A stretch of 64,000 bases of DNA, from NCBI RefSeq assembly GCF_921293095.1, contig NC_060247.1:52735111-52799110 (forward strand), read 5' to 3'. This document shows positions 9,192 to 50,400 of the stretch, piece by piece. This DNA is from Ischnura elegans (taxonomy: Eukaryota; Arthropoda; Insecta; Odonata; Coenagrionidae). The position numbers were made by a program, and so were the translations under genes. Below the pieces are notes generated by a model. It was not told the origin of the DNA, did not search any database, and saw nothing but the letters and a program-made list of their open reading frames with translations. Numbering within the stretch: position 1 is the first letter of the stretch; each line of letters begins with the position of its first letter.

Positions 9192-9282
9192 TTAGGCCTC
9201 TGTTTCACCACCTTTGAGTCTGAGTCTAGCAAAGTCCTCAAAGATGATGTCATCATCCTGATCCAACGTAGGAACACCATCA
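9192..9282 (-). CDS. krz: Arrestin exon 12 (C-terminus with AP2-binding motif)
   Basis: Follows a CAG acceptor at 9283-9285 and ends at TAA (9192-9194). It encodes [20 protein letters not shown] and then RLKGGETEA. The [16 protein letters not shown] segment fits the [DE]xxFxx[FL]xxxR motif by which beta-arrestins bind the beta2-adaptin appendage. The last strand also supplies the Arg of the polar core in the basal state. Confidence 0.93.
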
Positions 9283-11460
9283 CTGAAAAAAAATTCAATC
9301 TTTAACAACCATTCACATTAACAAAGCATGCAGAAGTAGGTAAGAATAACATGGTTTTCGGAATGGTTTTTCCTCCCCCAACAACTTTCTGAATGTGTTT
9401 TTATTTAACTTTGAAATTAAATTTACTTTTCATTCCATTGCAAAATTAGTTAAATTCTTTTGCAAAAATTTGACAAGATTTGCACAGAAAGTCTAAGGCC
9501 TTCAACGTAACAATCTCCAGTAATGCAAGGTGGGATACGTAATTTTTTTTTAATGTAAGTGAAATGATAACAAAGAAAAATGCATATATGAGCTACGAGC
9601 ATTAATTTTCAAGTATTACAGCATTGGTTGCTGAGGAATAAAGCACAAATAGCCCAATAAGAAATGAGACAAAAATTTCTACTTAGTAAATCCAACCATA
9701 TCACAGGGTGTAAAAGGAGATATGCTAAAAGAGTACTCTTCAACTCGCAGGTAGGCAAGTACATGGTGCACTCTGATAGAGCCAGTTGGATAAAGTAAAA
9801 TCCATAACCATCATCTCATCGGGGACTGCAAAGCCCAAACAGTACTATTCACAATAATGTAGTTTTTACGGAAGATGGCCACCAGAATATTATCATTTCT
9901 CTTGACTTGGAGAAAGGATCTATCCCATGTCACTCACCGCATCACTGTCTCAGTGGATGAATGGTAATCTAATGACAATATTAGGTAAAGAATTCTTTAG
10001 AATCATTACCTCATAAGGAGTTAAAATATATCAGAAATATTTCACAGAGAGGTAGTTGACTGCTTGTAATGGTTATTTGCAGATGATGAAGAAGTCTACA
10101 TGGAAATTAGCATTGATCAAGCAAGTTCTTGATTCCATTAAATATGGGCCAATTCATTTCAGCCTACATCCATACAAAAGACCAATATATGTACAAACAT
10201 CAACTTCAGTTTATGTATTCACATCATTGTGCTAGTACTAAAATAAATTCTTCAATTACTTACGTGTCCAATTGAATTAGATTAGTGTCATTAGAAGGAG
10301 TTGTTTCAGGTTGAACAGTTGGGCTACCATCAGAAGGGGCATCTCCTTCACTTGTTACAGCATTCAAAGGCGGCAAAGAAGAAGATTCTTCCTCAGGCTC
10401 AGGATGCATAAGGGTAAATGGTAGCTCAGCCACCAAATCACTAAAAATTGATTCCAAAAGAATTTCTTAGAAGAAAATCTAAAGTTGAGGGGGCTAAAAA
10501 TTAATTACACTAAAACCACCCTTACAAACTCCTGCTAAATGAAAAACTCCAATTAATAAATGAAAAGGTACTATTGGTCCCACCGGCTATCAACAAAATC
10601 ACGTTAGTAATCTAATAATTTTCGTATCTGCTCTTGTCATGTTCAGTTGTGTTTTCCTGGATCTCCGAGTTCCTCAAAAACAATGAACAGAGTGAACATG
10701 GGTGTTCTATACCCTGAGAGTTTGCTTGACAGTCAAGCAGAATTCGGAGAATTTTTCTTGCAAAGTATGTAGAGAAACCTTTTACACATATATTGTATCT
10801 CTCTCTGAGTCTTCTTTGATCTAATTTGATTCTGATACCCATTTCAATTACCTAATGTGCATAAGAGTGTAATTTATTTATAGGCAGGGCTGGGCACAAT
10901 ACAGGCTGAGGAGTATTTGAAATAAAAAATACTTTTGACTTGGGTATTTGTAAAACAAACTACAAAATAATATTTGAAATACCTTTCAAAATACAAAATA
11001 CATTTGTATGGAAACTAAGAGGTCTTAAAAAAAATTTAACCAGCCTTGGAACGTTATGGATAGTTGCAAACATGAAGAAAACGATTCTAACGAAAACAAA
11101 GTAATATCTGAAGCATAATGTTACCAAAGTGTTATCACAGCTACTTCAAAACTATTTTACAATGTATTTTTTATTTGACAATGGAAAAATGCCAAAAATT
11201 GGTTCTTAAAATACAAGTTACATTCAGGTTGTGTAATTGAAATACCAAATACAAATTACATGTATTTCAAATAAGTATTTTAAAATTCTTGTATTTGAAA
11301 TACTGTCCAACCCTGTCTATAGGTAAATCATATTTATGACGCAGGTTAATTTCATCAAATGTTTTAAAGTTCTATACCTTTACCTTCATTTATTAAATTC
11401 ATGTTTTGATTAATATTCACAGCAAAAAGTAAAGATACATGTACATTAGTCATGAGTATA

Positions 11461-14400: not shown

Positions 14401-17400
14401 TAGCACTCCCATCTGTCACATTTTGTCCCAATGTATATGTATTAAAATTAATAATCATAAAAGCTTACCCTCCAAGAGGCCCAAGACAAAGCTTCACCTT
14501 AACTCGGTACTGTACGATGATTCCCAAGTTCTCTCGTTGTGAGGGGTCAGCAATTCTAAGGAAAATAAGAACATATGATCATGCTACAGTTCTATGAAAG
14601 TTAACGAAATACTTTTATGCACATATATTATATCCACCATAATCTCTAGTATGTCTCATTCATTGCATTGAAATCATTTCTTTAAATTCAAATGTCTAAC
14701 ACCAGAGCAAATTTGATATACTAATTAACAGGGAAAATCTCTACTTTTTTAATGTGCATAATTTTATAAATTCACAGATAGGGAAGCATGTAAAAGGGAC
14801 CTGAGCTGGAGACAATAAAGAAGAATTATATGCTATAACAATAAAATTGAGAATTTCCCCAACGCTCAACTAGAATACACAATTGCACCAACAAGAATTT
14901 ATAGTTTTCCCTCGATCCATCAACAATATGAGAGAAAATAACAGGGAATCCCAATTTTCAATTATTTGATAATTTTTATAGCACTAGGCAAAAAATTTTT
15001 ATCAGAAATCCTATAGTCCATGAGATTGGTACATACATTAGTTCTGGCTAACTCTCATCAGCCAACTATCTCCCATACATTTGACAGCACATGATACTTT
15101 ATAGAGATTTAAGTATGATGTTGACGACAAAATTTCTCAGCAGGATAGCAAAATGAACCATGAAAGATGTTACATAACTACAGTCCAATAATAAACAAAC
15201 CTCCAAAGTCAAATTTATGGGCTGGCACATTTAAGAGGAGGAACATACACATGATTTTAAAAAATAACCTTAGTTATGTTCTGGAAACTTTGTTCAAAAT
15301 ATCTACTGACTTCACCTGATGCTCACAGTCAGGGAAACTGTAATGAACTAATATGTACTATCTTTTAAAAATAATGGAAGAAGTCCAACTCTAACAGAAC
15401 AATTATGAATAAAGGTAAATATTTGATAACTAATAAATGGAATAAAATAATCAGTTATTAGATACTAGTAAATATTTAAAAATTAACTAGCATTAGTTTT
15501 GCAAGCCAACTCAGTTCAGAATTTAGTAAATTTGGTGGGTAAAATTTTATACCGGTATCCCTCACGTTACACTCTACGTTCCTATAAAGAGTTGCATAAA
15601 GCAAATTTTGTACTAAGCGAGAGGTACACATATATTTGGTAGTATAATTCACACTGTGTGCCACAAACTGACTTTTCTTGGGGCTATTTTAAATCCATGG
15701 TCATCAATATCATACAGTGAAAAATCCAAGAGATCGCTATCTTTTATAAGACCAATTACTTCATGAATATATCAACATACTTGTGTTATTTGCTTTTCTC
15801 CTGCTTATAAAGAGGTAATGTGTGAGTTTTGGCAAGTTCCTTAGTCGAGGTAAAGCAGGTTGATTGCTTGAACAAATAGAGGGCAATCTCAAAACCCAGT
15901 CGTAGAATACCGAAAACGGTGTGAAGCAAATTCATGTTAAGTGAGGGATACCTGTATTTGCTACCCATATTTAAAATTGCTCAATTTTTTTAAATACAGA
16001 CACAAATGGAGACTTTTCAACGCCAGTGATAAAAGAATAAAACATCATTGCCAACATCCCATAAGCCAGAGAGGTAAATAGTCAGTACCTCATTGAGGAG
16101 ACAAACACAGTTGAAGTGAATATACATACATACACATTACAATAAAATTAAGATTTTGTTAGTCAATAGCCAAATAAGTATAGCGATAGCAGTTTTTATA
16201 GTTAATACTATAGGAAGGAAAAAATTTAGACACATACAAAAACTTAGACACTGCATGAATCTCAGTCTCCTTTGCTAATAGCTGCAGTATTTATAATAAT
16301 ATAATCTAAAATAGATTACATATAGCAACAAAAGAGCTGTATCTTACCTATGCATTACTTATTTCTACAAATACAACACAGAAACTTAAATAAACAATAA
16401 TTTAAGGGTTCTTTTGTTGGTAGAATATTGTGTTGGTTTTTTTGCAGTGAAAAATTTTCAGTGCTTCTTACAAATGTGATTGGCAATCAAGAGGAGAATA
16501 AGCACTCAATTTTAACCTACTCCATACAATCACAGTTCACAGCCTCTTGAAACTAAGAATCACCACCAACATTAATTTTATATCATAATAACAGCTATGT
16601 TGTGCTTTCACGAATACTATGACAGAAGTTTAATTTCATAGCTTCAATTAAACAAGAGTTGTTGCCAATTTTGTGCCATAGGTTTGCCATTTCCAGACTA
16701 TGAGACTCACATGTGCATTGCCATTGGGTAAATGTCTAAATGCTTGAATGTGAGAATGAATGCCAAAATGCACTGTGTAACTGCACAACTTGTGCTAATG
16801 CATACACAGAAAATTGAACCTGTTCTAATTTGGTTCATACATTTGTACATGTTCCGTTCCAGTCCACAAAAATCATTCATGCAAATAGACATTAACTCGT
16901 ACGTGTTAATGTATCGTGTAAAAAGGCCTTAAGATGTAATTTTTTCACTAATTCACCTAAAATCACAAAAAACGCAAAATTTCGTTTCTATTTACTGATT
17001 TAGCATTATTTCGTGTTATTTTGCGATATCGCATCTTGCGAATTTTGCAGATCTCTACTAATTAGCCATCTGCTTATTCGGCTTATCTGGCTTAAAAATA
17101 ATCTCACGAGGACTCTTGCCATAAGTTTAGGGATACAAATAGGGTTGCGATGACTAAGTCCTCCAACAGCTAACTTTCCAATGCTACCCACAATAGTTGT
17201 AGGTGTACGTTAACAGAAAACAAGGTGACAGATCTGGTGACTCAGAACATTTTAAAAACATTTACCAATATTTTTTTTAACAACCAAAATTTATTTCACT
17301 TATCTTGATGGTTTCAAAACATTTGAAAGTATGGGGCCGGTTGATATTCTTTTTTATAATAATAGAAGCATCCTCAGAATAGTTATGCCAATGCTCCAAA

Positions 17401-23400: not shown

Positions 23401-26400
23401 GAAGAAATTGAACGAAGTCAAGAGCTCCAGCATCTAAATCATGAATTCTATTAAAATGCAGTGGTCTTCATTTGAGTTTCTCCTGATAATAGCTTCATTC
23501 ATTCATTAGCTATTATATAACGCATTAAATAACATGGCAAGCATTATTACCATATGAATCCACATCAAAAATTCCTAACACATAACAAAATAATTAAGTC
23601 TCTCATTTCTTTGACCAGCCCAGAAGCCCAAAATGTACCCAAAACACTTCTGTCTACATCACTAGGAATTGAAGGAGAGATTCCTTCCTATGTTTCAATC
23701 GTTTTTGCACAGTAGACCCCCGCATTATGATGGGATCGACTTAGGATGTCTTCAACATGCGATTAGAGTTGATTTTGTATGTGATTAATAAAATTTAAAT
23801 TTCACGGATTTTGTTTTCATCGATTATGAAATTCTATACCTTATTTGTTAAAAAAACACATTTTTGTTACATATCAATCTATGCATGTGCTGATGTTAAT
23901 TGTACATCCCTATTTCATTAATGACAATCACAACACAATTATAATGTGATTATGAAAATAATGGAAAAATTACCAATGAATGACAAAATTGAGTAAGAAT
24001 ATATCTATTATTGAAAGAAAATCGATAAATTTATTTTACCAGAAAGCTGGAAAAATTGGCCCTTGAGTTAATAGATTTCAACTAACTTTGGCAAAGCGTC
24101 ATCTTTTGATTAGAAAACGAAAAACTGTATTTTTGTAATGCGCACAACCAAGGGGGGACAAGCCATGGTCTAGGGGAGGTCAAGCCAGGTTATGACATTT
24201 TAGCATGGAAAAGGTGAATGAAACCAACATTTTAAGAAAATTATAACAGCGCTTTCTTAGTCTATGAGATTATTTCCTTGAAAAAAATTGCTTTATTTTT
24301 GTTGCTTATCTTATACTAATGCATATCATTTTTCGTGGGTTTAAAGAAAACTTGTTCAATACTTTCATTTCAATTCAGCACTGATTTTGCTTTAAGACTT
24401 TAGCGATTATTGCTTCTAGGGAGGGGCAGCTGCCCCCCCTGCCCCTCGCTGGGTATGCCCATGTGCACAACTGTTCACAAAGTAGTGCAATATTGTAGAA
24501 CTGAAATTTTACAAAAGCATCCGTGCACCAGATGCAGACTGATTCAAATTTAAAATGGTAATGATAAATCATCAATTTCAATTTGAATCATTCTTTTCAA
24601 CTTTCTGGCTATGAACTATAAATCATGTTCATCCTGAATCAGGTAGAAAATGCAGTGGCAGTGGATATTTTTATCAAAAAGTGCATGCTTCCGCCTCTAG
24701 TTATCACTACGTCAAAAATATGTCAGAATGCGTGAACGTCCACTAAACTTAAATGCTGACCTAGCAGATGACAGAATGTGGACTTAATAAATATCAGTTA
24801 TCAATCTATAATATTTAAACCAGTGATTCACACACTTACTTTCAGCAAAAATCCTACTACCTCATATAGTTTATTGAATTTGTCCTGTGAGGAGTTGAAG
24901 TACAGGAGAAAGGGAAGAATGGCAAAGGTAGACCACAGACGAGATGCAGAGAGCAGTTGATTGATAAATAGAAAATTTTGTATGTGTTAAAAGATTAGCC
25001 AATATGAAACTGAGTGGATGAGGGATATCTTAGATTGGACCACTCTTAGGACTTATGATGATACTATCTTACGAAGCATATATGTAAACTGAGATATATA
25101 AACCTTTCTGGCTTAGTGGGTCTTGATACTAGCTACTATTTAATTATTTTTCTGGGAACTAATGATTAACTTCGCATCTTAATGGACCGTGCACTAAAGC
25201 TCACATTATGTACCATTCTGATCTAACTACTTTTCACAACACATTGGACTACTTATTTAATAATTGCAATGACATGAATCATACATCTAAACCAATTACA
25301 ATTCAACATTTCTACAAAAATGCATTGCACTGTAAAAAAGCAAGCAATGAATGATTTCTATACATAAAATCTCAAAAGAGCTGGATGCAGAAATGCATGA
25401 AAAATGTAGTATAAATTTGCAAGAAAAGTCATGAGTCCGAGAAAAGATTCATAAGAGCAAAGCATTGCATTAGCATGAGGCAAAAAATTACAATTGACAG
25501 ACTATAAATATGCAAGAGCATTAATCTTGCAGCACTTCTGCAAATGGAGGGAAGTGTGAGCGGTGATTAGAGATCATCAAAACCACTATCACCTCCTCCA
25601 AAGCAAACATTTACTCACGGAGTGCTCGATGCCAGGTTGGTGTCCTCATGCTTTAACTGGCCGTCGAGGGCAAGGCCCCACTTATCCTTATTGTCGGCCA
25701 GCAAGGGCATCAGTGTGAATACCTTAGAAAGCGTGAACCCAGGTCCTATTGGGCACCCCTCTCTGCAAAGAGGCGGCAGGAAACGGAGGAAAAGGCAAGG
25801 GGGTAGGGGAGGAGAGGAGAGGGTGGGCTCAGTCAACCCGAACCCTCTCCCCTGCACCTGTGGGGGGGCCCACCTTAACACATACCAATGGTGGGAAACC
25901 CCCCTTCACTCACACAGTAGAGGAGGCGAGGTTGGTGTCCTCATCTTTGAGCCGACCATCCAATGCCAGGCCCCTCTTATCGCGGTTGTCCAACAGTCGC
26001 GGAACAAGTCGATGAACCTTGGACAGAGTGAAACCAGGGCCAACAGGGCAACCGTCTCTGCAAAGAGATGGCCGTGGGGCACTGCCTGGCGGTCCTTCCC
26101 ATTCCAACCCACCCACACCCAACAATACACCAATAACCCAGCCAGACCTACACCCTCCTGGCTCCATCCTCCATACCCAGATTCTTAACAGGCTGGTAGG
26201 ACTAGTGATTAAGCTATCACATTTAATACAGAGGAAATATAGAAGTTCAAAGGAAAAGAGGGAATAATAACCTTCGTTCTATTTGAAAAATAAAATGTGG
26301 AACAAAATAGCTTTAAAATACAAAGGAATTGATCTGCAAACAACTTTCATGTAAAAAAATCAGAAGGTTGCTTAATAAAATGTAGAATTCCATCGACTTG

Positions 26401-29400
26401 AAGGGAACAAAAGAAAATATTGAATAGAAGTCGAAACATAAAAGATTCAAAATTACTGACAAATATGTCCTTCTGAAATGTTAACCTCAAAAATGGAAAA
26501 TTAATTTGCTCACATGAATACAATTTTTAATTTGTTACACCATACAAATATTGAAAATTTTAATGGTGCAGAAAAAAATTTAATTTCAAATGATACGATC
26601 CAGTTCCTGAAACAGCAACTGACACTTGAAATTACACATTATTAACAAGAGATCTTCAGACATACGTAGGAAAATATTGAAATTAACTGCCCTTGAGATG
26701 CAGCCAAAAAAATAATTTAACAGCATGAATATCCTGAGGAACAGATCCAATTCATATAATAGGGCTGAGTGGTTGAATGAAACCTTTCTTAATAGCAAAA
26801 TAGAATTCAGAGCAAAGCTGGATATCCATGGGTATTATTTTTAGCAAGTTCATTTCACAAGCACTTGTAGAAGAATTTAAATGGACAAAAAATCTTTCAG
26901 ATTTTAGCAGAAATTGGTTGCTGTTTAATAGCAACAATAAGCAATTGCAAGCATCTCACATGAAATGAACATGTTTGAGAGAATGAGTTTATAGGAAACA
27001 AAGTGCCCACTACATTAACGAACATAAAATAATTCAATGGAACTTGATTTAAAAACCGCAATAACATAAAAAATTCAGTGAAAAATTTTAACTTCCTAAT
27101 AATGGATTTTGCAAAAATGAAGCCATTACTTCCTGGCTCTCTCAACACTATTAGTGTTTACCATCTTCATGGGGTACAGCAATAAATACTGATGGTAATT
27201 TAATATAATATACCTATAACCTTCGGAAAAAAACAAATGACAAAGCTAATTTTTTATCTTTCGATATGTTTTTTTTATTTCAAGTAGGACTAGTCAAAAA
27301 TAATAATAAAGTATTTTTATACTGACTGAAAAATAAATTTAACCATAGCAATGCCATAAATTTTAACAATATATTTTCACCTTGGCGATATATCGGTCCA
27401 CCACAATGAGTGGGTTAAATTTTGTTAAAACAAGCTTCTACTGTAGAATAGTACAACTCCAATTACCCTGGAGTATCCAATACTCCGTTATGTGAGCTTA
27501 ATAATCCAAGGGAATATGAAATACAGAGATGCAATTCATCGATGGCTAGTATCACGTAAAAGAGCATGGGAATTTACACGTTTTCGAATCACCAAGAAGG
27601 CATCAAAACCTATGCTTGCTTTCAAATGAGTTGTTACATACAAGATGCCATGTGCCGATTTCTAAGGAAGAATGACAAGAAACAGTACTAACAAAAATAC
27701 TGTTTCCTTTTTACGCTTTTTAAGGAACTAGTGAATTGAAAATCAGAAGATTGAAATATCACAAGGGATTCTGGAGCTATGGAGGAACTATTCATTGACA
27801 GCATTTTCTCTTTAGCTCAGTGGAAGTTCTAGAAAATGTAGCACATAAATTGGAATAAGTAATTTTCTTGGATTTTCAGACTCAAGTTTTTCAATACTGA
27901 TGAATAACAAACATTAAAAAACAACAGATATTTATGTAAATTTGTAACCAAGAAATATATTTCCATCGGTAATACAAGATGCATCAGAGAATATACTGAT
28001 TTTCCTCCAAAAAGGTGGTGGTAATAAAGTCATTCAAAGAGCATATTAAGATAAGGTTCCACTCAACTTCAAAAAAATTAGCCCTAAAGTTCAGCCCTCA
28101 TCTTTAATACCCAATTTGTATCTGCTATCAGCAGTGAATAACTTAAAAGATGAATCAAAATGTTAATTTAAAAAATGCATACATCCCCTATGTAAGCTGA
28201 ACAATGACCTTTCATAATCAATAATAATACAAGCTGTCCCCAAGTTACACATCTTCAATATTGATAAATATACGATGTAAATACAAATTCAACATTTCTT
28301 AAAGAAAGAATAAAAGAAATTTCCTATTTCGTTGTGCTAATACGACCCTAGTAAAATTGTTCAAATTCTAGAAAATGATTATCAACTACATGTATCATTT
28401 AATAACTATGTATTAGAAATACATTGATAAATTCAGGGAGGTTGTATGAATGGTTTAAATAAAGATATTTCTTCCTGGTCAAATACTGATGCCTCTTGCC
28501 CTTCCAAAAACAATTGGTATATTTAAAAGTATTCCTTCGCACCCACTTCTACCTACAAGCATAGACTCACATGACAACACACAGCAATATTTGAATAAGA
28601 GCCAAAGTTCTAAGGCCTTAGTTGCCCTCTATTAGAGATTAAAAGTAATAATTAAATACAATTTTAATTAATGGAAGCTAGAAAGTTACAACAATATTTA
28701 TGCAATAGTATCATCGCATAGTAGTATCATTGCATAGTAGTATAATGCATATCTTAATTATTGAATTTGGTGGAAAAATGCTGTCCACATGCATCAATCA
28801 TTTTCAGGGAAAATGATTTCATAGTAAACTCCCCATGATGATTCCCCACTATTCCACAGTAAACTGATTAATTCCAACTAACCACCTAAAAAAATATTTA
28901 AACAAAGGAATTATCTGAGATCACCTAAAGGTACTTTAAATAATAAAGTCAACAGCTTTTTAGAAAGCAGAGTGGTATCCTGCTTTTTCCATGAACTATT
29001 TACAAAAAATGAGACCATTTCGTTCTACTCCTTTTAGGAAGTTTTGAACAAAATTAAATAATTTACCTCTAGCACTAATGTAAGGGTTGACATCCTAACT
29101 CTTAGTGCCAAGATGAGATGCAAATGCTAACAAAAAAAACTATTCTACTTCACCAGCTTGGCCAATTCTACCTAAATGGTTAACAGATAACAAACAAGCC
29201 TTGTAACACATAATAAGCGCAAATTGAAGACAGCTTGTATACTATCATTTATTCTGAGAAGCCAATAAATCACCAGTCATTCCAATATCTAATAAATTAA
29301 AGTTAAGATGAAACATAAGTGCTCCCATTTTTTAAACAATACTTACTCGCTTTCTATTTCAGCAACTGTGCATTTGTATTGTGCAGTAGAAAAAAGGCAT

Positions 29401-32400
29401 ATATCCGCAAACTGACGAACTGAAAATGATAATTGAGAGCATTTCAATTAGCTAGTATTCCCAATTATTACTAATTCAACATGGATACAAAAGAGGTATT
29501 AAAAACAACTAAGGAAGTATTTAATCCTTAAACGAAGGAGTAAATACTTCCTTAGTTGTTTTTAAAAAATAGATAAGAAAGAATTTAGCTAAAATCAGTG
29601 GTAACAAATAACAGAAAAGAATTTAAGAATTCTTGAAGCCCCAAAAAAAATGTTTTGAAATATATTTTAAATACATTTAACCCTCGCTTTACCATAATAA
29701 TCCGTTCAGGGGGACCAATCTTAAAGTAAATTCCGTCGTGTGTTGAATAGTCATTATTTTCAAATGTAGAAGCAGTTAAAAGAGCACCAGTAATTGTAAA
29801 TTTGGGAATGTTATTTTTGGAAAACATACTCCAGTTAAACTTAATGATTTTTCACATAATGACGTCAATTCTAAGGAATGGTTGACAATCCACACCCGTC
29901 TTTCTTCAGATTTGGGAAAGATAAAAAAAATTGCAATTGACTCTCATCGACCTTAGAATGCCCACTAATGAAGCAGATTCTGCAGATGTTGCAACCATAT
30001 TTCTCCTACACCTTTGACTAAATATGCCACAAGATACATCTCAGGGCACTTCTCAAGGGTGTCATTTTCACCAAAATCACAAGCATCTCACAGAGGTTGT
30101 TGCCTTGTTGAGGTTAGGGATAAAAAAAACACCCAAAGAGGACTGGGATGATAATAGACATTTTACATGAACCCAGCTATCTCCAGGCATATTTGCTCTA
30201 CTAACAAGAACAGAATTAAATTGGAATGATTTGAAACCAAAACCATCAAACTGCTCCTGTGGAATGTGCTGCAACCACGTGCTTAATTGAAACAAGTCAC
30301 AGCGCAATGTAGGCAGCTCTTGGCACTGCATACAACAACAATGCATGGAGAAGAGGTAATAATAATAATCCTCAGTGGATTCAACAATAGTGATATTCGC
30401 TCCATTTCATATTGCCCTTATTATACTGCACAGTGAGCACTCAAGTTATTCCTTTTTCTGTTCTTTAACTAACACTACATACATAAAATAACAGTAAAAT
30501 ACTAATTTTAATTACAGTTTTTTTTTAACTTGAGCATCATCTTATTTAATAATAAGTAGAAAAATATTTGATAAATTAACAACAATTGCATTATTAATGA
30601 TTTCTAACACTTGGTGAATATTTTTATCAACCAAGAAAATCACCATTGAAATTTCAAGTGAAATCATTATTAACTATGGCAAAAATACTCATTGCAAGGA
30701 TAATTGATAGGAATTGAAGGCCAGCACTCAAAAGGTGTTCAGTAAGATATTACGAAGGCTACTCACCAGAAACCTTAATCTTTCTCACTGTGCGATTAGA
30801 ATTGTTTGCAATGTGGACATTAACAGCTATGTTTTCACCGTGGTGATACAACTAGAAAAAAATGAAATAATTATTGTACACAAATCAAAGTAGAATAAAA
30901 ATTAAAATTTCAAAACCACATATTAAAAAACATAACATGTCAGTGGAATAAATTAGAGATGTGCAAACACCCCATTTTTTACTCAAAGCCAGCCAACCAA
31001 TACAAAATCTTTTGTTTGCATCACGCTCCAAAGTCAAATCAATATTTTATGGTTTTTGAGAAAATTAAGATCGAGAGGTGGCTGCTAAGTTGAAATGGCA
31101 AATGGGCCCATTGCAACAGAAGAGGAATAAATGTATGGGATGGGATAGGGAGTTAGGTAGTCATGGGTGCTTACAGGAGAGAGGAACAAAGAAAGTCCCA
31201 TTACTATACATGTAATCCAATGTAGGCAGCTGGACTTCATCTCGATAGACCGGAAGCCATAGTTAAAGCACTCGCCTGCGCACTGAAAGTCACGTGTTCG
31301 TATCCCAATCTATGCAATTAATTTTTTTTCTCTGTTGAATTTTCGCACAACGAGTTATAATTAGGAGATATATTTAAAGATGCGACAATAATAGCTGTTT
31401 GTCATTTTCATACCAAATAAAATAGTGCAATAAAAATAACCGAGTATGTGCAAAAACAGATAAAAATCTAACCCCATTATTTTATGTTATTTTAACCTAC
31501 ATAACTCGAGCCATTGATAATAATGGACACCTATTTCAACCTAATTTAATCACAGTATTTCCTTCCAGCATACCTTCACTTTTATGGAAATTTTTTTAAA
31601 TGTTTACGGCATATCATGAAGGCCATAACATCATTTATGATGATCAATATTCATATTGAAATAAGATACACAATGAAAATATGACAATTTGGTTAAACAA
31701 CTGAGTAAGTAAACCATATGTTGCCGGAAAATATGATGGATTTCACCACTATCTGTAGTTTAGTTCTTACGATACACAAACTTATCAATCAACTATGCTC
31801 TCATGACAATGAAAGAACAAACTCGTTTAAAATTTACCTTCATTCCCGTAATTTGCTCAAAACGACAGGTGATTACCTTAAAAAAAACCACAGACGGGCA
31901 ATCCTAACATAATTTACCCCGCAACAACATCAATTATGTGATAATGTATCAATTAGCACTTATGTATGCCCGTATATACCTTTCGCCTCTCTTGTGAAGT
32001 GTCAAACCTGGCGGAAGGTTATTTTTGCTGCTCACTTGTCTCTTGAAAACCGTGGCGTTTTAACATTTCCCCTTTAGGATGACTGTTGACGTCATACCAA
32101 AAGTGGAACGCTTTCCGATAGTATGTGTGAAACGAAAGGAAGACGAGTGTAGGATAGGTTCCCAATCGACTCGGATTGAATCCGTATCCGACGCTGCCAC
32201 TCCTATGAGACTCTGAAACACCCTCCAAAGTTAATGCCAAAAATTACCTCAACAACTCCTGCCCTGAGTCTGCTTGTCTAAGCACTGCCACCACACAGTT
32301 GCATTCAAAATGTGGTTGTGAAACAGTGAAAATTTACTCAGTACTAGTAGGCAAAATGAATATTTAGCCTGGGTTGCACCAATAATTTTCTTGAGATTAA

Positions 32401-35400
32401 GTTCATAATTAAGTGATGGGAACGTTCACTCAAACCCAACATCGCAATATAATAAAATAATTCAGTGGATGAATGGGAAAGATAAGTTATGACAAAAAAA
32501 AAACATTGTATTTATTAAGCCCTTCTCTCATAACTTGAGAATGAAAAAATGCATAAGTGCCACCCACTTTTCATTAGTTAGAGACGTCATTAAAGTTCTG
32601 GTTCATTAACCCTTTTAGTGCTATCCTCCTTCTAAGGGTAGAGGCGAGAAATGCGTAGGGTATTTTCATGAAATTTAGGGCATTTTTGGGTATTTTCATA
32701 AAATGTAGCAACCAGGAAAAAAAAACAATAGAAAGCAATTTTATTACTTATCCATAAGCAGTGAAATAATTTTTTTTTAAATAGTGAGGTAAAACTGGTT
32801 AATATTGACAAAATACTTTTACGTTTACTGAAATAAAATATATCAATGTGATAAGTAGGGACATGCAAAAGTCGCAAATGCGATAACACGAAATTTAGCG
32901 CGAATTCCGGGGTTTCCCCACGAATACGCAAATTTCTTGTTAATAGCGATTTTCTCCAATTCAAGAGCGATTTTCACCAACTCAGACGCAATTTTCATCA
33001 ATTTTTCATCTGCTCATGCTTCTCCCACAAAATTGTTTTTCAAGGCGTATATTTAAGCCGTAATTTTTTCACTGCATTGGCCGCTTTACTACGGAATGAA
33101 TTTCTACGGGCCGCAGTTCACACCCAGCACCATGAAATCCAGAGTGATGTCTCATTTGAAAGCGGCCTGAATTTCATGGCTCCGCACTGAGAACTGCAGC
33201 CGGCGAAAAGTCGTAGCGTCTGAAAGTAGCCTCAAGGTAGCACTGTGTGTATTTCACGTCATAGATGGCACACGAGATTGAAATGGGAGCCTTGCAGACT
33301 GTCGACAACGCCGTGCCGTCAACTGCACAAATCGACTCGTTTGAAAAAATACATTGAGACCAATTGTTACTTGAAAGCACGGTACCGTGCTGTTGACGAC
33401 GGCCGGAGCAAAGCCGATTCGTCTGAAAGCGGCAAAAAGCGGCGGTGCACCATCTATGCCGTGAAATACACATGGAGCTATATTGAGGCAGCTTTCAACG
33501 ATTTACCGCCAGCTGCCGTTCCCGGCAAAGCACCATGAAATTCAGACTGCTTTCCGACAAGACGACTCTGGATTTCACGGTGCTGTGCCGTGAACGGAGC
33601 TCTACAGAAATTCGTCGCGCACTATCCTAATGCACACATATTATATAGAGAGTTAACCCTTTTGCTACTAATGACGAAAATATGTGGCAGGGCATTTCTT
33701 GACCCGGGAGACCAAAGCCGCAAATTTTCGACTAAGATTTTTCTACGTAGGAGAACGAATGCCGAAAATATACATTTACTTACTCTCCCCCTTTCGTGAC
33801 GGTCGCGGGTTCGCGAAGTCTTAGTTCCCTCAACCTCCTGACCCCCCAACTAGTGTTTTCAACTTACCGTATTTCTCCAAATACAGTCCCTCCCCCTAAT
33901 TTTGAGGCTTCAGTTTCAGGAAAAGTTAAAAAAATGCGTTCGAATATAGTCCCCCCCTTTACTTTTACCACAGGCATTTCTGGAAAAAAAGGGGGGACTA
34001 TATTCAGACACATACAGTATATACTGGGCTGAGCTGACTGTCTTACCATTTACGAATAGCATACAGACTTCTATCTAGGTGGATTGACTATTTAAATATA
34101 TCTCCAATAATGAGCAATAAAGCACAACTGCAGATCCACATTAGCTCAAAAATTCTTCCACACACATCTTCTGCCACACTGCAAACACTCATGAAGAGTT
34201 TATTTCAGTCACCCACTTCAGCATAAATTTGCCAGCTTAAGAGGATAATTTAGATTCTTGTGGGCAATTCGTTATTCTTACCTCCTTGTCCAAAGAAGCT
34301 TCTAGGTGTAATTTGTTGGGACTCATCATGAACTCTTTACTAACTTCCACAGAAGGTTGATCCCCTTGCACACTTGGCGCATACATAATTTTTCGGATTG
34401 CCAGCCTGACAGAATTTCTGGAAATAGATAAATTAAACATATTCAATTAAACAAAATATCTGCTTTGTTGGCAATGATTCATATCTTCAACTAGAAAAAT
34501 TGAACATACAAAGATTTCATACACAACATTAATAATAAAATGTATACGCTAACATATGCGTATCATCAACAAGAACAAATCCACCAAAACATTAGCTTGC
34601 AGGCAAAAGTAAAACTTGCAACACTAGAATTGACAGCTTGGATGACTGGAGAAATAATACACACAATCCCTGATTAACATTGATCTAGTTAGTACTATTC
34701 AGATGTTGAGAGCTTGTTCCAGTTATTTGCTCTTGAAAATTCTACAATTTGTAGGAATCACTGCACCCCGTGCACCCATTCGATTTACGAAATTACAAAC
34801 CTCAGTCCCGGTAGTTGCAAAATGAACTTCATTACGAAGTTTCACGCATAAGCAATGGCATTTAGGTGGATATTCACTATGCTAAGCTTTAATAATCACG
34901 TAACATTTAAGTTCTTCTAGTGTACTGTGCCCAAGAGCGTCAATTATGATTCTGTATTCAGTATACACACAACATCATATAATAAGCTTCATTCCTGTGG
35001 TGTCACGGTAACCCACTCATAACCGCTTGTCAATTGGACGTACAGTTAGTCCTCTTCCTACGCACATTAGATTTACGAATTTTCAGAGATACAAGCATTC
35101 AAAATTTTCAAATTTCGAATTTGGTGCCTTTAGATTTGGCCGATGCTATGCGGTGTGGCGCAGAGGAACTCTAACTGTGGGCACAATCTGAACAAAGTGT
35201 CATTGAATCCGGTGTGAATTTAGCAACTGCTCAGCATTTCGCCCATTCTTTGTCACCGCTGGGAGCTATTCTTTCGGCTCCAAATGCATCACATGCCCAG
35301 CTAGATCAGTTCGTCACAATCGTAAGTTAGCTCATTAGTGTACTGTAGTATTGCATTCTGCAGGATAACTGTACTCCTCGATTCCTTGCATACAGTCCGG

Positions 35401-41400: not shown

Positions 41401-44400
41401 GTAGGGCCGGGGGTGATTTTGTGAAATCTACGCCGTGGTTATTATCTTATGGCACTGAGATACCCCCGATTATTGTCCAATCTCTTGGGAAGATTCAGGC
41501 TATGTGCCTGTCGTGTTTTGCTTTAAAATTTTCCACAGCTGAAACTCTATTGCAATACTCCTACGAGAGCTTTTAAAAAAAACTGTCCATGAGCAGGACA
41601 AGCATCGTAGTGCAACAGCGTATGTGAAGAGAGGGTCGGAACTCTTTCTACTCCCTCTTATGGGAAACGAAATTACGGGAATCGAAAAAAATTCACGAAA
41701 GCATTGATTGAAAATTTCGGATTCAGATTCAATTTCTTCGACGAATTTGGATCCGAAGTACATTAAGGTGAAGGGCATTATTAGTGGATATTTGGATCTG
41801 AGGTATCCGATCCCACCGTCCCTAGTAAGCATCATAAGGTTAAGACTAAAAGTGAATACCTACTCACCTCTGAGCGCCATACATATTGTGTAAATTTAGC
41901 AGAAAAATGCCGCATGAATTATTGGTATTGAAAGTGAAAATTTTGATGACTGTCGAAAGTCCAGGCATAAGTCTGCAACACCGTGCGATAGTATTAAAGA
42001 AAATGCCGAAAAGTTGTTTTTTTCTTTAGCTCCGATGCTCCACTGAATGCAACTACATTATATTCTAGTCAATTTAGATACATTAGAACTAGGGTAGTTA
42101 GCCCTAGTTAAAATAACATAAGATCGTAGGCTTTCCCAGCAAATAATATCAGTAAAACCCTATCAGGTTTGTTACGGGATAAGCCCTTAAGTAGCCTTAA
42201 CCAGTACCAAACACAAGAATATTGAACAAATATTTATGCACACTTCCCCAACTTTTCACACTTTATGGGGTCACTAAAAATAAAAAAGGATTTTCACTGA
42301 AACTGAAACCCACTGTTAATAACATAAAGAGAATATATTTTTCCAACCCCTGCATGATATAATTAATACTACAATTATCCAATTACCGTTTATGAGGTTT
42401 GTCGTCCCGTGTTTCACCAACGAATGCTTTTAACTCATAATCTACACCACAGGGTTTTCCCGTATCTCCTGGAGCAGGTTGTAGGGTAACAGATGCAGGG
42501 CAGTGAGGGGGAAGCTCAAAATAAAATGGATAGGCATTGGGTCCCAACTTCTTCACTAGCCTTTCCTGAAATGAAGAATAAGGATAATAAATGCAATTTA
42601 AGGAATCATATTTTACACAACATTTTCTACAAAAACAATTTTCAAGGACATCAAGACTGATTATCATAATAAAATATGTGGTAACGTACAAATGGACAGA
42701 TAAATAACAAACATTAAGTATGTGTACAAATTTATATGGAGAGTTTTCCTACATACGGTTCTTAATCCCCTCCATTTCCTCTAGGGAGTTATTAGTCACC
42801 TTGCTTCCTTTTCTACACATCACCCTACCCTTACCTTATGCATATCTGCAATTTAGGAAGCCTAGTGCCTATTGTAGGATTAGATGACATGCAAATCAAA
42901 ATATTGCACTTTCATCTTTGACCATGAAAAACAACTTAACCTTGACAGAAGATGCAATTTTATCAAAGAAATTCTTCTGGTTATATAATGTCTTATCTAC
43001 AATATTAATAACTGTTTGGATAATATTTACATTATTTTATAAATTAATTGCCTGTCAATCCACATCAACTATGTCATGAATTGCACTTCAAGCATCATTT
43101 GTTTACACTTCAAAAAAACCAGAACAGAAACTTTTTAGATCAAGATCTTCAAGGCTATTTTCATTTTACTTAAATGCATACTTTCTACACAATTACGAAA
43201 AACATTAAAAATAGCGATAAAATCACTTTAAGTACTAGTTGCCCTTCCGACTGAGGCAAACAGATTTTCCATGACCAAAGGCCCTGTGCAAGCCAGCATC
43301 TTATTAGTAATTGGTCATGGGTAAAATAAAAATGGTGTCCACTAATTTTTCTGAGTAACCATTATGTACGGCAATGCCTTTGATGGTGCAGTGTTCTTAG
43401 CTAAAAAGGACACAGCAAAATAAAACCAGTATTTTACAATAACCAAACTCTGAGAAGCATACTCGAATCGCCTAAGGACAAGGAAATTCGGGAAGAGCAG
43501 AGTGGAGTGTATCTCCTTAATTGCACCGACTGTGACACGATTTACATTGGACAAGAGTTTTTCCACATGAGTGGCCAAGCACCACATGTCACCAGACACA
43601 GGGAAGAAAACTCTCAGTTCGCATAAAATCTCATTGACATGGGCCACAACAGTGACTTCATCACAACCATTCTGCCCAGAAAGAATGCAGATTACACCCC
43701 CTGGAAGAGCTGGAAATTTTAAGCCACAGGGACTCATATCTAGTTTATTACCAACTTTATCCTTCTTGCTCCCCCTGCTCCACTTTCCCACTCATTCATC
43801 CAACCCTTCACCCACCCCACCCACGGTGACGTCTACCCAAGCACCGAGCCCAACCACCACCTCCCCCTGTCCACCCCTCAGCACCCGAAAATTTCCCATT
43901 CCATTTTTTAATGCAATATATACCACTCAATTTAGCTGTACTCCTCACCTTGAAAATGATACATGGTAAAGAAACCATGATCGGACAAAATAAAACACCA
44001 TATGGAAAAAGCCAAGTTTTTACTCCTACTATACAAATGTCAACCAACAAATAATTTTTCCCCCATTGAATTCTGCACATTATGTGCACTTACATGCGAC
44101 TCCAAAAAGGTGTACTGCTCATTAGTCTTGAGACTTTCCAATAAAATTGGCACCCTGCTAAATACTAAATTATATGTTGATGCATACATACCTGAAGTCG
44201 AGTAAGTGGTCTTCTTCCTCCTGGCTTATGCCAGGATGAAGCAGTTGGAGTAGTTCCACCAGTTGAACTGTCCTGTGTTTCTGTTGATCCAGCAGGTGGG
44301 GGATAAACTTGCTCTGAAGCGAGGTAGAGGTCTTTCCTAAATGTAAGACCCAAAACATCCAAATCCTCTCGTCCATACCGAAATGCTGCCAAAACATGTC

Positions 44401-47400
44401 CAAAAACCTTTCGATCTTGAACATAGTCTGGATCAACAAGCACTACACCATCTAGAAACACAATAAAAGATAATAATTAGAATGAAATTTAGAAGTTTTG
44501 AAATACCAATACGTACATAATTCTATAGAACATTCCACATTCAGTTGTCACTGTGGGTTCTTGTGGAGAATCGTTTTCCATATTACTCTCTGTAGTCCGC
44601 TTGATGAATTGTAGCCAAATCTTAGAAATAGCAAATTGTAATAAGGAAGGGAGCTACAAAAGTTAAAATCTTAGAAAACTTTGTCCCATCTTGCTAGCTT
44701 GCTTTCCAAGTGTGCTGAAGAGAGAGAGGTAAGAAAACGAACATGGTATTTTAACACATTGCAGACCAATCATGGAGATCTCCGTATTTTGCGAGCCAAA
44801 TGCTGAGGACCAGCCACAGAGATTTCAGTGTTTTCACATATAATAATGAAACTTACTCTGCTTCTTTTAATATAAAATACATATGTTCACATTTGCTTCT
44901 GGTGTATTTGAGAATGTGCTTTTATTAATTTCGATTAGTCTTATACCATTCAAATTATATATTTTTTAGTATTTTTTAAATGAACGTAATTCACTACTTG
45001 ATATTACTAATGTGTCCGAATAAAATTTCACTAAGCTGTAACAAGTGAAAAAACTTGATAAAACATTAATTTTTCTCTAACAGCAACTCTATAAATTCTA
45101 GAATGTTCTGAAATTACAAATTATAATATTTTAGCTAATGAGAAATAATTTTGGTCTGATTTTTTCGGTCCTTTCAAATTAGCTATAACACAAAATCTAT
45201 TGTTGATGCATGGTGGCGCAAAGTGAATAATGTATATTTCACCTTTGAATGTATATTTTCGGCTGTCCTTCACACCCACCATGGTCTGGATTCTCACAAG
45301 ACATCCTATCTTCAGCCATCAATAATTCCTGTGTATCTTGTCTACTGAACAATTACTCCAATAACAATAAGACCTTATCTGTAGTAATGGTGTCAACTAG
45401 TGGTGGTGCTTTCAGAATGACAGAGAAGGATATATACGAAGAACTTTGTGTTGATGCATTATCGGACGTGCCAGATGATTGCGTAGATGAGAGTGAGAGC
45501 TCAGATAGTGAAATTGGTTTTGATATTGGTGGAAGACAACCTAAAAGAAAAGCTGCACAGTTAGTTTACACTGATGATAGAGCCTCAGATGCAAGTGATA
45601 GCAATGGTAGCTTAGTAAAAGACACCTCGGTGACATGGAATAAAATTAACCTTCCAAGAATTTTGTAAGATTTACAGAGAGTGGCAGTAATCATCAATGC
45701 CCCTGATAATTGTGAATGTGTTTTAGAAGTGAAAAAAATTTTTTACTGGGGATGACCTTCAAAAAATTTGTTTTGGAAGTAGCCAAGGGTTGGGCTACAT
45801 ACGAGGAGGGAAGAAGTGCATCTTTAAGCGATGATGACACGGACTGTGAGATAGAAAGACCGACTCAGCGAGCGCCTTGGCAGGATAACCTGAAGTAACT
45901 TACTTTTCTCACTGTCACTGAATAAATTAGAGCGGAAGATAAAGCTTTCTTTAACACTTTTTTGGAATCTATCTCTTGATCAAGGAGGAGAATCACGAAT
46001 GAGGTATCCTCCATTCTGAATTTCTATCTTCTGAATCAGAATTGAGTAATTTCAGTTCAGAGACATCAGATTCATCTAGTGATGAAACTCAAGAAGTTCT
46101 TAACACTGAGTAGGGTCTAGTAACTACGCGTATGTCCGCACTAGAATTACACTGCCAAGATCTATAGCTGTGATTGTCGGAAAATAACTGTGCAAGTCCT
46201 TTTGATCTGTATAAGTTGTTTCTTACAGATGATATGCTGGAGTATATCATAAGAGAGACTAACAAATACGCTAATGAATTTACAAACTAGCATACTAAAA
46301 ATGAAGTAGGCACTTACCGAAAACATCGCGTATCTAGTAACTACGCGTATGTCCGCACTAGAATTACACTGCCAAGATCTATAGCTGTGATTGTCGGAAA
46401 ATAACTGTGCAAGCCCTTTTGATCTGTATAAGTTGTTTCTTACAGATGATATGCTGGAGTATATCGTAAGAGAGACTAACAAATACGCTAATGAATTTAC
46501 GAACTTGCATACTAAAAATGAAGTAGGCACTTACCGAAAACATCAGAAAATTTGGATACGGGTTACCCTCGGAGATATTAATAAATTTATAGGTATTTTA
46601 CTAATTATGAGTGTTGCTCATCTTCCAAAAATTCGTCTTTATTGGTCGAATGATCCAATGTATATGAACACACTAATAAAAAGTATTATGCCTAGGGATC
46701 GCTTCCTAGCCATTCTAAGGTATTGGCACTTTTAGGAAAACAATCAAAAGAGATGTAAAGATCATTTACATAAGATTAGCTCAATTCTTTATTAAATAAA
46801 TGAGAATTTCCAAAAACATGTGAAACCTGGAAAAGTAGTAGTGATTGATGAAAGCATGGTTCCCTGGCGTGGGCGTCTAATATTTCGCCAGTACATATAT
46901 ACCGGGTAAATGACATAAATACGGCATCAAACTCTATAAGCTCTGCCTTCCCGAAGGCTACACTTATAATGTGATTGTATACTCTGGTAAAAGAAGATAT
47001 TCATCTGAAAAGGGACATGCACATGACATAGCAATGAAGCTCATGAATGGACTCCTGCCTGAAGGTCGCATATTATATACGAACAGTTTCTACACAAGTG
47101 TTCCTCTAGTTAAAGAGCTATCTGAGAAAAATACATACCTGTGTGGAACAGTATGCTCTAATAGTAAACAATTGCCCCAGGCCGCAAAAATCAAACAAAA
47201 AAAGGGTGAGATATTAGGTCTACGAAATTCAGATGGAATCAAAGTAAGTGCCTACTCAGGACTTCGGTTAATTGTTATTCAATTTTTTTTACATCAATTC
47301 CCAAAAACATGCAAGTACTTCATTTGATATTTTGGTTCTGTGTACCACATGGTGACCTAAATTGTCAGGAAGGGGTGGAGGTTTGGCGATACTGTTCTCT

Positions 47401-50400
47401 TTATTTTCTGTACTTCAAATTAAATATGGAAAACCTTAAATATAGTGAGTGCCACTCTAATGATGATTCAATTTTATCAACCACACAATCACATAATAAG
47501 CTCTTACTACAATGAATTCAAAATGCACACAAACCAAAGTCATAAATACAGTGGAACCCCGATCTTTCGTTCCCCCATTGATCGTTTTCCCGCATTCATC
47601 GTTCGCCGCTCCTGGTCCCAAATTAAGTTCCATAAAGACAATGTAATTTTTTCCTGCATCCATCGTTCCTCGAAGTATCATTTTCCCACATTGATCGTTA
47701 GAAGATCGCGGTCCCCTCGTATAATTTTCCCGCATCCATCGTTTGACGAAAATGAGACGAAGTGTTTACAACGTGTTATTTGTGGCTAATTATGACAGAC
47801 ACAGTTTGAATCTTCCCCAGGAGATTGAAATACTATATGGAGAAGCTGAGAGCCATAGGACATAGCACATTTCCCAAGATACGCTATCCCCCTCCATTCA
47901 CCACTCGCCTCCCCCTCTGAAGCTTTCCTCTTCTCCGAAACAAAAAAAAGGTCCCAGCTCGTTCAGGGATCGTATTACAAAGACCTTACAATTAGCTTTG
48001 AAAAAAATATCAAGTTACCCGAGAACAATAGAATCGTGTTTCACGCCTCTCCCATTCTCGCCCACTGAATTTTTTCAGCCTATGAATCACCTACTAGCCC
48101 AAAAGGTGTCTAACAATGAATTTCGGCAATTGGTATTATACTTTTATCAGATTGAAATATTAGTAATGTGCACGTAATTCAAAAAAGAATGATACCAAAC
48201 ACAACATATTTATAACGTTATTTAAGTATTTTAAGCAAGGAAATAGAATAATAAGATGGTGATTTCTGGCCAATCTCGATATCCTCGCAGCTGATTGTGA
48301 GCTTCTAGGCATTTTTTTTCGAAAACAGGGCATCTGGTTATAATTTCCGATTTATGCTACAAGTCTCACTCGTTTGAGTTGCTAATGAAGCGATGTCTTC
48401 TCAGGATATTTTGTTTCTCCCTACTAGCAATCTGAATTCATCTGCTCATTTAGAGCTAAGCTACTTATTGTTCGAAATGAGTGGGTAAGTTGCCTTCTCT
48501 ATAGGATAAAAAATTTCATTGCGCAGTCATATGGTCATGCTTCACCCTCTGCAGTAAGCTCTGCTTACACCACACACGATAGCATTAGTGCCGAACTTCA
48601 CCTCGTATGAGTGGTTCCGTACTTTCCAGGGTGAGTTGACTTAAAACCAGGGAGTGTTTTCCATATGGGTTCAATAAAGTCCATTTCATTTTTATTAGTT
48701 TTATTTTTATTCGTCTTCGGACCATGGCCCTTCCGAAGAAACAAGTGAGAACTTTTAAATATGGACTGAAAATAATTGAAGACAAAGAAAAGAATCCGGG
48801 CTAGAAGCGCGTGAATATTGCAGAGCGCCTCGGGTTGTCCGCTAGCACATGACGGCAGGGGTGAGGGTAGAGCAAGATGCCTGGTGAAAATAAAGTGGGA
48901 TGAAGGGCGTGCCGCTGACGATTAACGCAACATTGTTGACGCTTTATACATTGCCTCAATCATATTAAAAATTTAATTGCTAGAAAGGAACATTTCAAAT
49001 AATAAACTATGTTTGGCCTTTTTGATCCATCTCACAATCAATCACTGCGTCGGCGAAAGCGGCTGTTTTAGGCATAATATGCACATTGCTCTCGTAAATA
49101 CGTGTACTTGTAATGGCGTTTGATGGTTATGGATTTTTAAATCAGACAGAAATCTATAATAACAGTGAAAATGCCGAGTGGAGTGCAAACATTTTTTAGC
49201 AAGATGGCGTGTTCCTTTAGGATATTTGAAAGAGATATAAGTCAAATCAATAATATGACCTAAGTGGTTCGATGAAGTAATAATAATCCTGTAATCAGGT
49301 AAAATCTTGTTTGAATCCATTAATAAATATCATAATTCGTAAAAAATCCAGCGTTTCCTGGGACAGGCAACCTGGTCAAGCATTCCCGCATTGAACGTTT
49401 TTTTCATCCATCCCCCTGAAAAACGATAGATCAAGGTTCCACTGTAACAAATTCCATGATTATCTGAACATAATTCAATATTTACTAATCGAAATCACAT
49501 GAACTGAATAAAATTTCCAAATGGGAAAAACTCTGAGGTCATTAATCAGATGGAGTCACCTGAAACGCATGCACCACGCAAGTGGTGCCAATCTCATTTT
49601 TACAACTTCAGTCATCAAACTCCATTCTTCCGTTACATCAGCAAGTGGAGTTGCACAAGGCACTAAATGTATGCCTAGGATACAAATTAGCATGACGATT
49701 CATAAGAGGTGGGCTGAGTTGCTGGTAGTCGGCCATTTCATGCTGCATCACTCATTGTCAGTCTAGTCAACACCAATCAGAGTTTCACGCCTAACTTCCC
49801 CTTGCACCACATAGGTTACTGCCTACAGTGCAAGCAAACTTAAGTTTTATACAACATCATCCCTCGGGAGACTTCAAAACGGGTTAATGCTTGTGCTGCT
49901 TCCTGTTGATAATTGCCAAGGACCATTGTAAACCCTGTTTCTGAAACATTTTTCCTTCCAACTAATAATTAATCCCTCATTCACTCTTCATTAGTAGATG
50001 TCACATTAAATGCTTTGAACCTCAGACTAATTTGCAAGCACGCAAGAATTTAGGTACATAATAATATGCTATCTTTCTTAAAATTTCTGAGCAACACATA
50101 CATTTAAGAGTAGAAATTATCTTACCAATTGGATCGACATGGGTAACATGGTCCACAAAGTCTCTCTTTCCTAAATACACGGTAATCTGCAAAGAAAATA
50201 CATGAAATAGTTGATTTTTAAACAATTACAAAGTAGAGTATGATGGCATTCAACACTAAATCCTAAGTTGAGAGATGATATAGGTATTTTGTGGAATACT
50301 TCACAAATAAAAAATATTTTTCACGCATTAAAACTAAGTAATTTTATGAAATAATAACACTTAGGAGGCTAATTTAAGACAAAATCTATCCATTGCATTT

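Follow-up and report, generated by a model that had tools for sequence, protein, structure and literature searches.

Tandem alternative exons are a known kind of gene arrangement. In the tandem duplicated exon substitution events described for human genes, with arthropod comparisons, homologous exons of the same length and phase lie in tandem, one region of the protein is swapped and the arrangement is ancient, and the exon pair described here is alike in these respects (PMC9741552, in its accessible part). The pair differs in that its probable exclusivity is deduced from protein entries and not from reads, and the word arrestin is absent from the main text of that study. Among arrestins, vertebrate beta-arrestin-1 and -2 have the same domains and the same lariat-loop segment as the gene studied here, and the R type of exon defined below matches their KRGLALDG. 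Known splice forms of these vertebrate proteins are short inserts elsewhere, and we know of no alternative lariat-loop exon in them. Drosophila kurtz and the beta-arrestins of higher flies are orthologues of the gene; the Musca (P0242) and Bactrocera (P0240) entries carry the W type, which is the only form found for these two flies among the matches listed, and no entry among those matches bears a Drosophila name. A kurtz sequence is compared in PMC12733242, the accessible part of which mentions no kurtz isoforms. Within the damselfly genome itself, a paralogous arrestin (C11) has the same exon in the same phase, but as a single copy of the R type (7.5 kb read). The further arrestin genes of this genome (C5, C6, C9 and C11; loci L002, L004, L005, L007 and L018), C11 among them, are presumably visual-type. 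At the position that distinguishes the two exon types, L004, L005 and L018 have R, and L007 has Q.

Here we describe a beta-arrestin gene of the damselfly Ischnura elegans in which the lariat-loop exon is duplicated in tandem. The gene lies in a 64-kb window, the whole stretch of DNA analysed. We propose, with a probability of roughly 0.72, that the pair (exons 9a and 9b) stems from one early pancrustacean duplication, that its members are mostly used one or the other, and that an arginine/tryptophan (R/W) switch between them retunes GPCR binding. The arrestin case, with its switched receptor-contact residue, appears undescribed: among the matches listed for arrestin splicing and Ischnura elegans in openly licensed papers, we found no description of the exon pair.

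All coding exons of the gene lie inside the window on the minus strand (Table 1). They were located with a human ARRB1 probe; coding exons 2-12 were then set by splice-site reading, with consistent phases, and the N terminus of P0002, the Ischnura elegans RefSeq beta-arrestin-1 isoform X1, served to place exon 1. The 9b isoform is identical to P0002 at 440 of 440 residues. Both isoforms contain Arrestin_N (PF00339) and Arrestin_C (PF02752) above cut-off, the best named matches of the 9a isoform in a protein search are beta-arrestin/kurtz, and its best solved-structure matches are beta-arrestin-1 and -2. The original assignment to a beta-arrestin gene is borne out by these domains and matches and, judged by its sequence, the gene is a non-visual arrestin (beta-arrestin/kurtz), closest to beta-arrestins and not to visual arrestins. 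NLIQLD and a 16-residue C-terminal piece align, by sequence only, with their human beta-arrestin counterparts, and we take them to be the clathrin box and the AP2-binding tail. The polar-core aspartates of the gate loop (D290 and D297) are kept in both 9a and 9b, within LALDG and EDTNL. AlphaFold2 models of P0002 (9b) and P0003 (9a) have mean pLDDT values of 54.7 and 53.0, and for this reason we base no structural argument or fold search on them.

Table 1. Features of the beta-arrestin gene, listed from its first to its last coding exon; positions are those of the window.
Feature	Positions	Strand	Basis or match
Coding exon 1 (15 residues + 2 nt)	55294..55340	-	N terminus of P0002
Exon 2	53936..53966	-	ARRB1 probe and splice-site reading
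Exon 3	50126..50186	-	ARRB1 probe and splice-site reading
Exon 4	44192..44451	-	ARRB1 probe and splice-site reading
Exon 5	42387..42565	-	ARRB1 probe and splice-site reading
Exon 6	34282..34417	-	ARRB1 probe and splice-site reading
Exon 7	30767..30851	-	ARRB1 probe and splice-site reading
Exon 8, end in phase 2 (GA)	29347..29419	-	Splice-site reading
Acceptor CTCTTTGCAG of exon 9a	26058..26067	-	
Exon 9a, R type, 49 protein letters	25914..26057	-	Identical in Hetaerina P0003
Intron between 9a and 9b, 151 nt, GT-AG	25763..25913	-	
Exon 9b, W type, 49 protein letters	25619..25762	-	Identical in Ischnura P0002 and in P0004
Exon 10	14469..14555	-	Splice-site reading
Exon 11, contains DTNLIQLD	10264..10440	-	Splice-site reading
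Exon 12 with stop codon, 21 protein letters	9192..9282	-	Splice-site reading

The tandem pair itself is confirmed. Exons 9a and 9b lie on the minus strand at the place first annotated, with the annotated common length of 144 nt and spacing of 151 nt, and they share the acceptor CTCTTTGCAG upstream and a GTGAGT donor downstream. Exon 8 ends in GA and exons 9a, 9b and 10 each start with A, while 9a ends in ACT-GT and 9b in ACT-CC, both exons running from phase 2 to phase 2. Because these phases match, 9a, 9b, both or neither can be used in frame, and direct reading of the exon ends upholds the initial annotation on this point. The copies are identical at 94 of 144 nucleotides and differ at 12 of 48 residues, a figure that replaces an earlier count of 16 of 48. 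The same residue is given by 36 of 47 whole codons, in 22 of these 36 through different codons, and the NG86 estimates are a dN of 0.22 with dS saturated. With human ARRB1 as probe, each copy is 66-67% identical to the lariat-loop segment of arrestin. Since both copies match this segment and a like pair is found in 29 of 248 other listed homologues, a chance origin of the pair is excluded. Furthermore, a DNA search of the whole 1.72-Gb assembly found the 561-bp pair region at one place only and therefore gives no sign of an assembly duplicate. As regards composition, 9a and 9b each have a GC content of 0.56, against 37% for the window, and their GC3 values are 0.56 and 0.67, against 0.24-0.45 in exons 2-8 and 10-12. 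The opposite strand across the pair is open for 205 codons (25571-26185).

The residue that separates the two copies in every tandem protein seen, and which the initial annotation had overlooked, is the equivalent of human beta-arrestin-1 R285 (numbering from structure alignment), corresponding to bovine arrestin-1 R291. Exon 9a keeps the arginine and exon 9b has a tryptophan. According to the accessible part of PMC10866553, R285 touches ICL2 in the complexes with the beta1-adrenergic and M2 receptors and ICL1 in those with NTSR1, and is one of the residues always in contact. R285A nearly abolishes coupling to the glucagon receptor (GCGR; PMC10447241, accessible part), while in arrestin-1 the mutants R291A, R291E and R291Q lower selectivity for phosphorylated rhodopsin, and R291A and R291E raise rhodopsin binding (PMC12733242, accessible part). 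The direction of the effect thus differs between receptors, as R285A loses GCGR coupling but R291A and R291E bind rhodopsin more. Tryptophan is not among the R285/R291 mutants reported in the accessible parts of PMC12733242 and PMC10447241. With 9a included, the arrestin would have the ancestral arginine where it meets the receptor core, and with 9b included a tryptophan; outside the exon the protein would not change, and both isoforms keep the two polar-core aspartates. We infer that 9b may encode an arrestin with a retuned receptor contact, and that splicing would in this way switch receptor preference or phospho-selectivity, the choice of exon changing either the range of GPCRs bound or the dependence on receptor phosphorylation.

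The distribution of the two exon types was assessed in a homologue set of 248 different proteins, comprising the best 120 each of 3,320, 3,516 and 3,012 matches from three protein searches; the counts describe the matches listed and not all arthropods. Among these proteins, 130 have the W type only, 82 the R type only, 29 both and seven neither, with no third letter in any single-exon entry. The R type comes first in all 29 listed tandem proteins, and the second copy carries W in 27 and C in two. The latter are from lice (P0026 and P0034), with the cysteine at the contact position of the second exon copy. P0081 (Fopius) is a tandem R-W protein whose second copy reads KWALALDG. Column statistics, which cover 28 of the 29 tandem carriers, show no residue shared between first and second copies at the R/W position; at column 11 (human T275), 22 of the 28 first copies have R or K and all 28 second copies have T. 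Of the seven homologues with neither exon, one (P0203) is a truncated sequence, and the other six are full-length models in which both are skipped (P0158, P0159, P0171, P0173, P0227 and P0247).

Named carriers of the tandem arrangement include a termite, bugs, a mayfly, beetles, Hymenoptera, a sand fly, a shrimp, a crab, an isopod and an ostracod, while separate R and W isoform entries occur in Zootermopsis, Phlebotomus, Bradysia, Lutzomyia and Anopheles. The novelty is therefore not local to this species, as the initial annotation had implied: among the matches listed, pairs are found in insects, malacostracans and an ostracod, and predicted isoforms with one or other exon are already public under RefSeq-style names (isoform X1-X5). 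All 19 named entries from chelicerates (13), myriapods (1) and Daphnia (5) among the matches listed carry R only; as the database is clustered at 90% identity, the absence of W from these groups is provisional.

The alternative that best survives these data, although we consider it unlikely, is that the exons do alternate but encode proteins equivalent in receptor binding, the pair persisting through expression control or through inertia. The large share of whole codons giving the same residue (36/47) would fit such equivalence, as would the presence of the polar-core aspartates in both copies. Equivalent proteins would not, however, lead us to expect a column without overlap between R and W in any of the 29 tandem proteins, nor single-exon entries in which only two letters occur (R in 82, W in 130), at a position that is a known receptor contact (PMC10866553, accessible part). 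We therefore prefer the reading in which the R/W switch retunes GPCR binding. A wider version of this reading, which we put forward tentatively and at rather short of even odds, is that the splice switch could be as old as crown Pancrustacea and provide R285 and W285 receptor readers from one gene. Tissue or stage might then decide between the standard contact and one adapted to other GPCRs or to receptors that are not phosphorylated, and the switch might do part of what two separate genes, beta-arrestin-1 and -2, do in vertebrates. In insects and crustaceans, few non-visual arrestins serve to regulate a large number of GPCRs, among them neuropeptide and amine receptors. If real, a conserved splice choice at a receptor-touching residue would amount to a natural experiment in receptor selection and phosphorylation reading by arrestins, and cell studies that used one insect beta-arrestin clone would have covered one of two proteins.

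The initial annotation had also proposed mutually exclusive use of the two exons. This stood among 52 contig-derived proteins (those with lgn/jgi sources alone), 20 of which carry R, 32 W and none both, although an assembler may break contigs where splicing branches. It did not stand as a strict rule among the 196 other entries, 29 of which contain both exons (five of these with lgn among mixed sources). Many isoform entries are predicted models and, with both exons in these 29 and neither in six full-length models, annotation is not strictly exclusive. On the protein entries as a whole, mutually exclusive use is probable. That 9a and 9b are instead independent cassettes, with double inclusion and double skipping both normal and function altered by the gain or loss of 48 residues in the C-domain, seems to us quite improbable. 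The case for it is made by the 29 double entries, which range from termite to shrimp and include Lygus P0018 (UniRef A0A0A9Y0J1; presumably from a transcriptome), by the six full-length models with neither exon, and by the open frame of every combination. It is opposed by the lack of any double protein among the 52 contig-derived ones, subject to the same caveat on assembly, and by the likely products: two lariat loops where both exons are used, and none, with the polar-core aspartates lost, where neither is, so that a normal arrestin fold would be doubtful in either case.

Several sequence properties bear on how one-or-other use might be achieved. Exons 9a and 9b both have GT-AG sites around the 151-nt intron, and nonsense-mediated decay is not expected to remove the double form, because both copies together stay in frame. 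On a donor matrix, the 9a and 9b donors have the lowest scores of the eleven scored. Of the twelve acceptors compared, that of 9a has the tract poorest in U (0.29), with a mid-range pyrimidine content (0.71), and the 9b acceptor is among the two highest in pyrimidine content. The low donor scores and the U-poor 9a acceptor would fit, weakly, with regulated exons. No RNA structure enforcing exclusivity was found among six pairings and three folds, none of which clearly exceeded what dinucleotide-shuffled sequences gave (the best folding z was -1.69 and the lowest duplex rank was 30 of 300).

R looks ancestral and W derived, since R is also found at this position in human beta-arrestins, in the listed chelicerates and in the C11 paralogue of the same genome. 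The simplest reading is that an ancestral exon of the R type was duplicated once, in an early pancrustacean, and the age implied by such a duplication would exceed 500 million years. We built an exon tree of 47 rows, with 19 tandem proteins among them, whose 43 or 44 columns give little resolution; Bemisia, Lygus, Lycorma and Polyplax (8 rows), together with the single rows of Uloborus and Oppia, are omitted from it. On all 44 columns the W copies form one clade with support 92/89. With the R/W column dropped they are not united and three changes are needed, though one clade is not rejected (p-AU 0.354). A separate exon duplication in insects and in malacostracans, with the downstream copy converging on tryptophan each time, would account for these three changes, for the R-only state of the five Daphnia entries, and for the grouping of malacostracan b copies with odonate a in a 57-row tree (23 tandem proteins plus single rows; in it the human outgroup is displaced by one residue and Bemisia is misaligned). 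We nevertheless regard convergence of this kind as distinctly unlikely: hexapods, malacostracans and the ostracod share the same order, the same joining pattern and the same W, and the clade of b copies recovered on all columns is compatible with the reduced data. We thus retain the single early duplication as our preferred account.

Selection on both copies, as suggested at the outset, is supported from two sides. Between the copies dS is saturated against a dN of 0.22. Among the homologues, exon 9a is identical at 48 of 48 residues to isoform X2 of Hetaerina americana (P0003), all 12 differences between that protein and the window's 9a isoform (440 residues compared) falling outside the exon, and P0004, a contig-derived protein, has 41 substitutions relative to P0002 and none in exon 9b. 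We read this as purifying selection at the protein level on both copies. At 8 of 41 columns odonate 9a does have letters that are seldom or never found in the other R types with a single entry, and it has a D in place of H295; decay of this copy in damselflies, to which these letters and the U-poor acceptor tract might point, is scarcely credible given its open frame, the saturated dS against a dN of 0.22 and its complete identity in Hetaerina.

Further variants of the exon were seen among the homologues. In the locusts Schistocerca piceifrons (P0035) and S. cancellata (P0040) the R-type exon reads KHEGTNL instead of KHEDTNL, replacing the second polar-core aspartate with glycine. By analogy with the arrestin-1 mutant data in the accessible part of PMC12733242, this form is predicted to rely less on phosphorylation of the receptor. 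The gall midge Contarinia (P0243) and the proteins P0182, P0187 and P0249 have KHDDSNL in their R exons. Several Diptera (P0157, P0188, P0199, P0219 and P0170) have an optional 10-residue piece, such as SRTLVDGKYR, directly after exon 9, and Bradysia P0154 and P0158 carry a different 12-residue piece between exons 9 and 10. A motif search of the damselfly 9b-10 and 8-9a introns did not find the dipteran 10-residue piece.

No Rfam family reaches gathering score in the 64-kb window. A near-perfect hairpin with 31-nt arms and a 5-nt loop lies at 29499-29565, upstream of exon 8 by approximately 80 nt. Elsewhere in the window there are two matches to mobile elements. A retrotransposon gag-like open frame occupies 2-898 on the minus strand (PF03732, E 5.7e-9), and a transposase fragment of the DDE_Tnp_1_7 family, which we take to be piggyBac-type, lies at 46914-47324 on the plus strand (PF13843, E 1.6e-20). 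The latter is adjoined by a 217-nt tandem duplication at 46116-46544, the copies of which are 98% alike.
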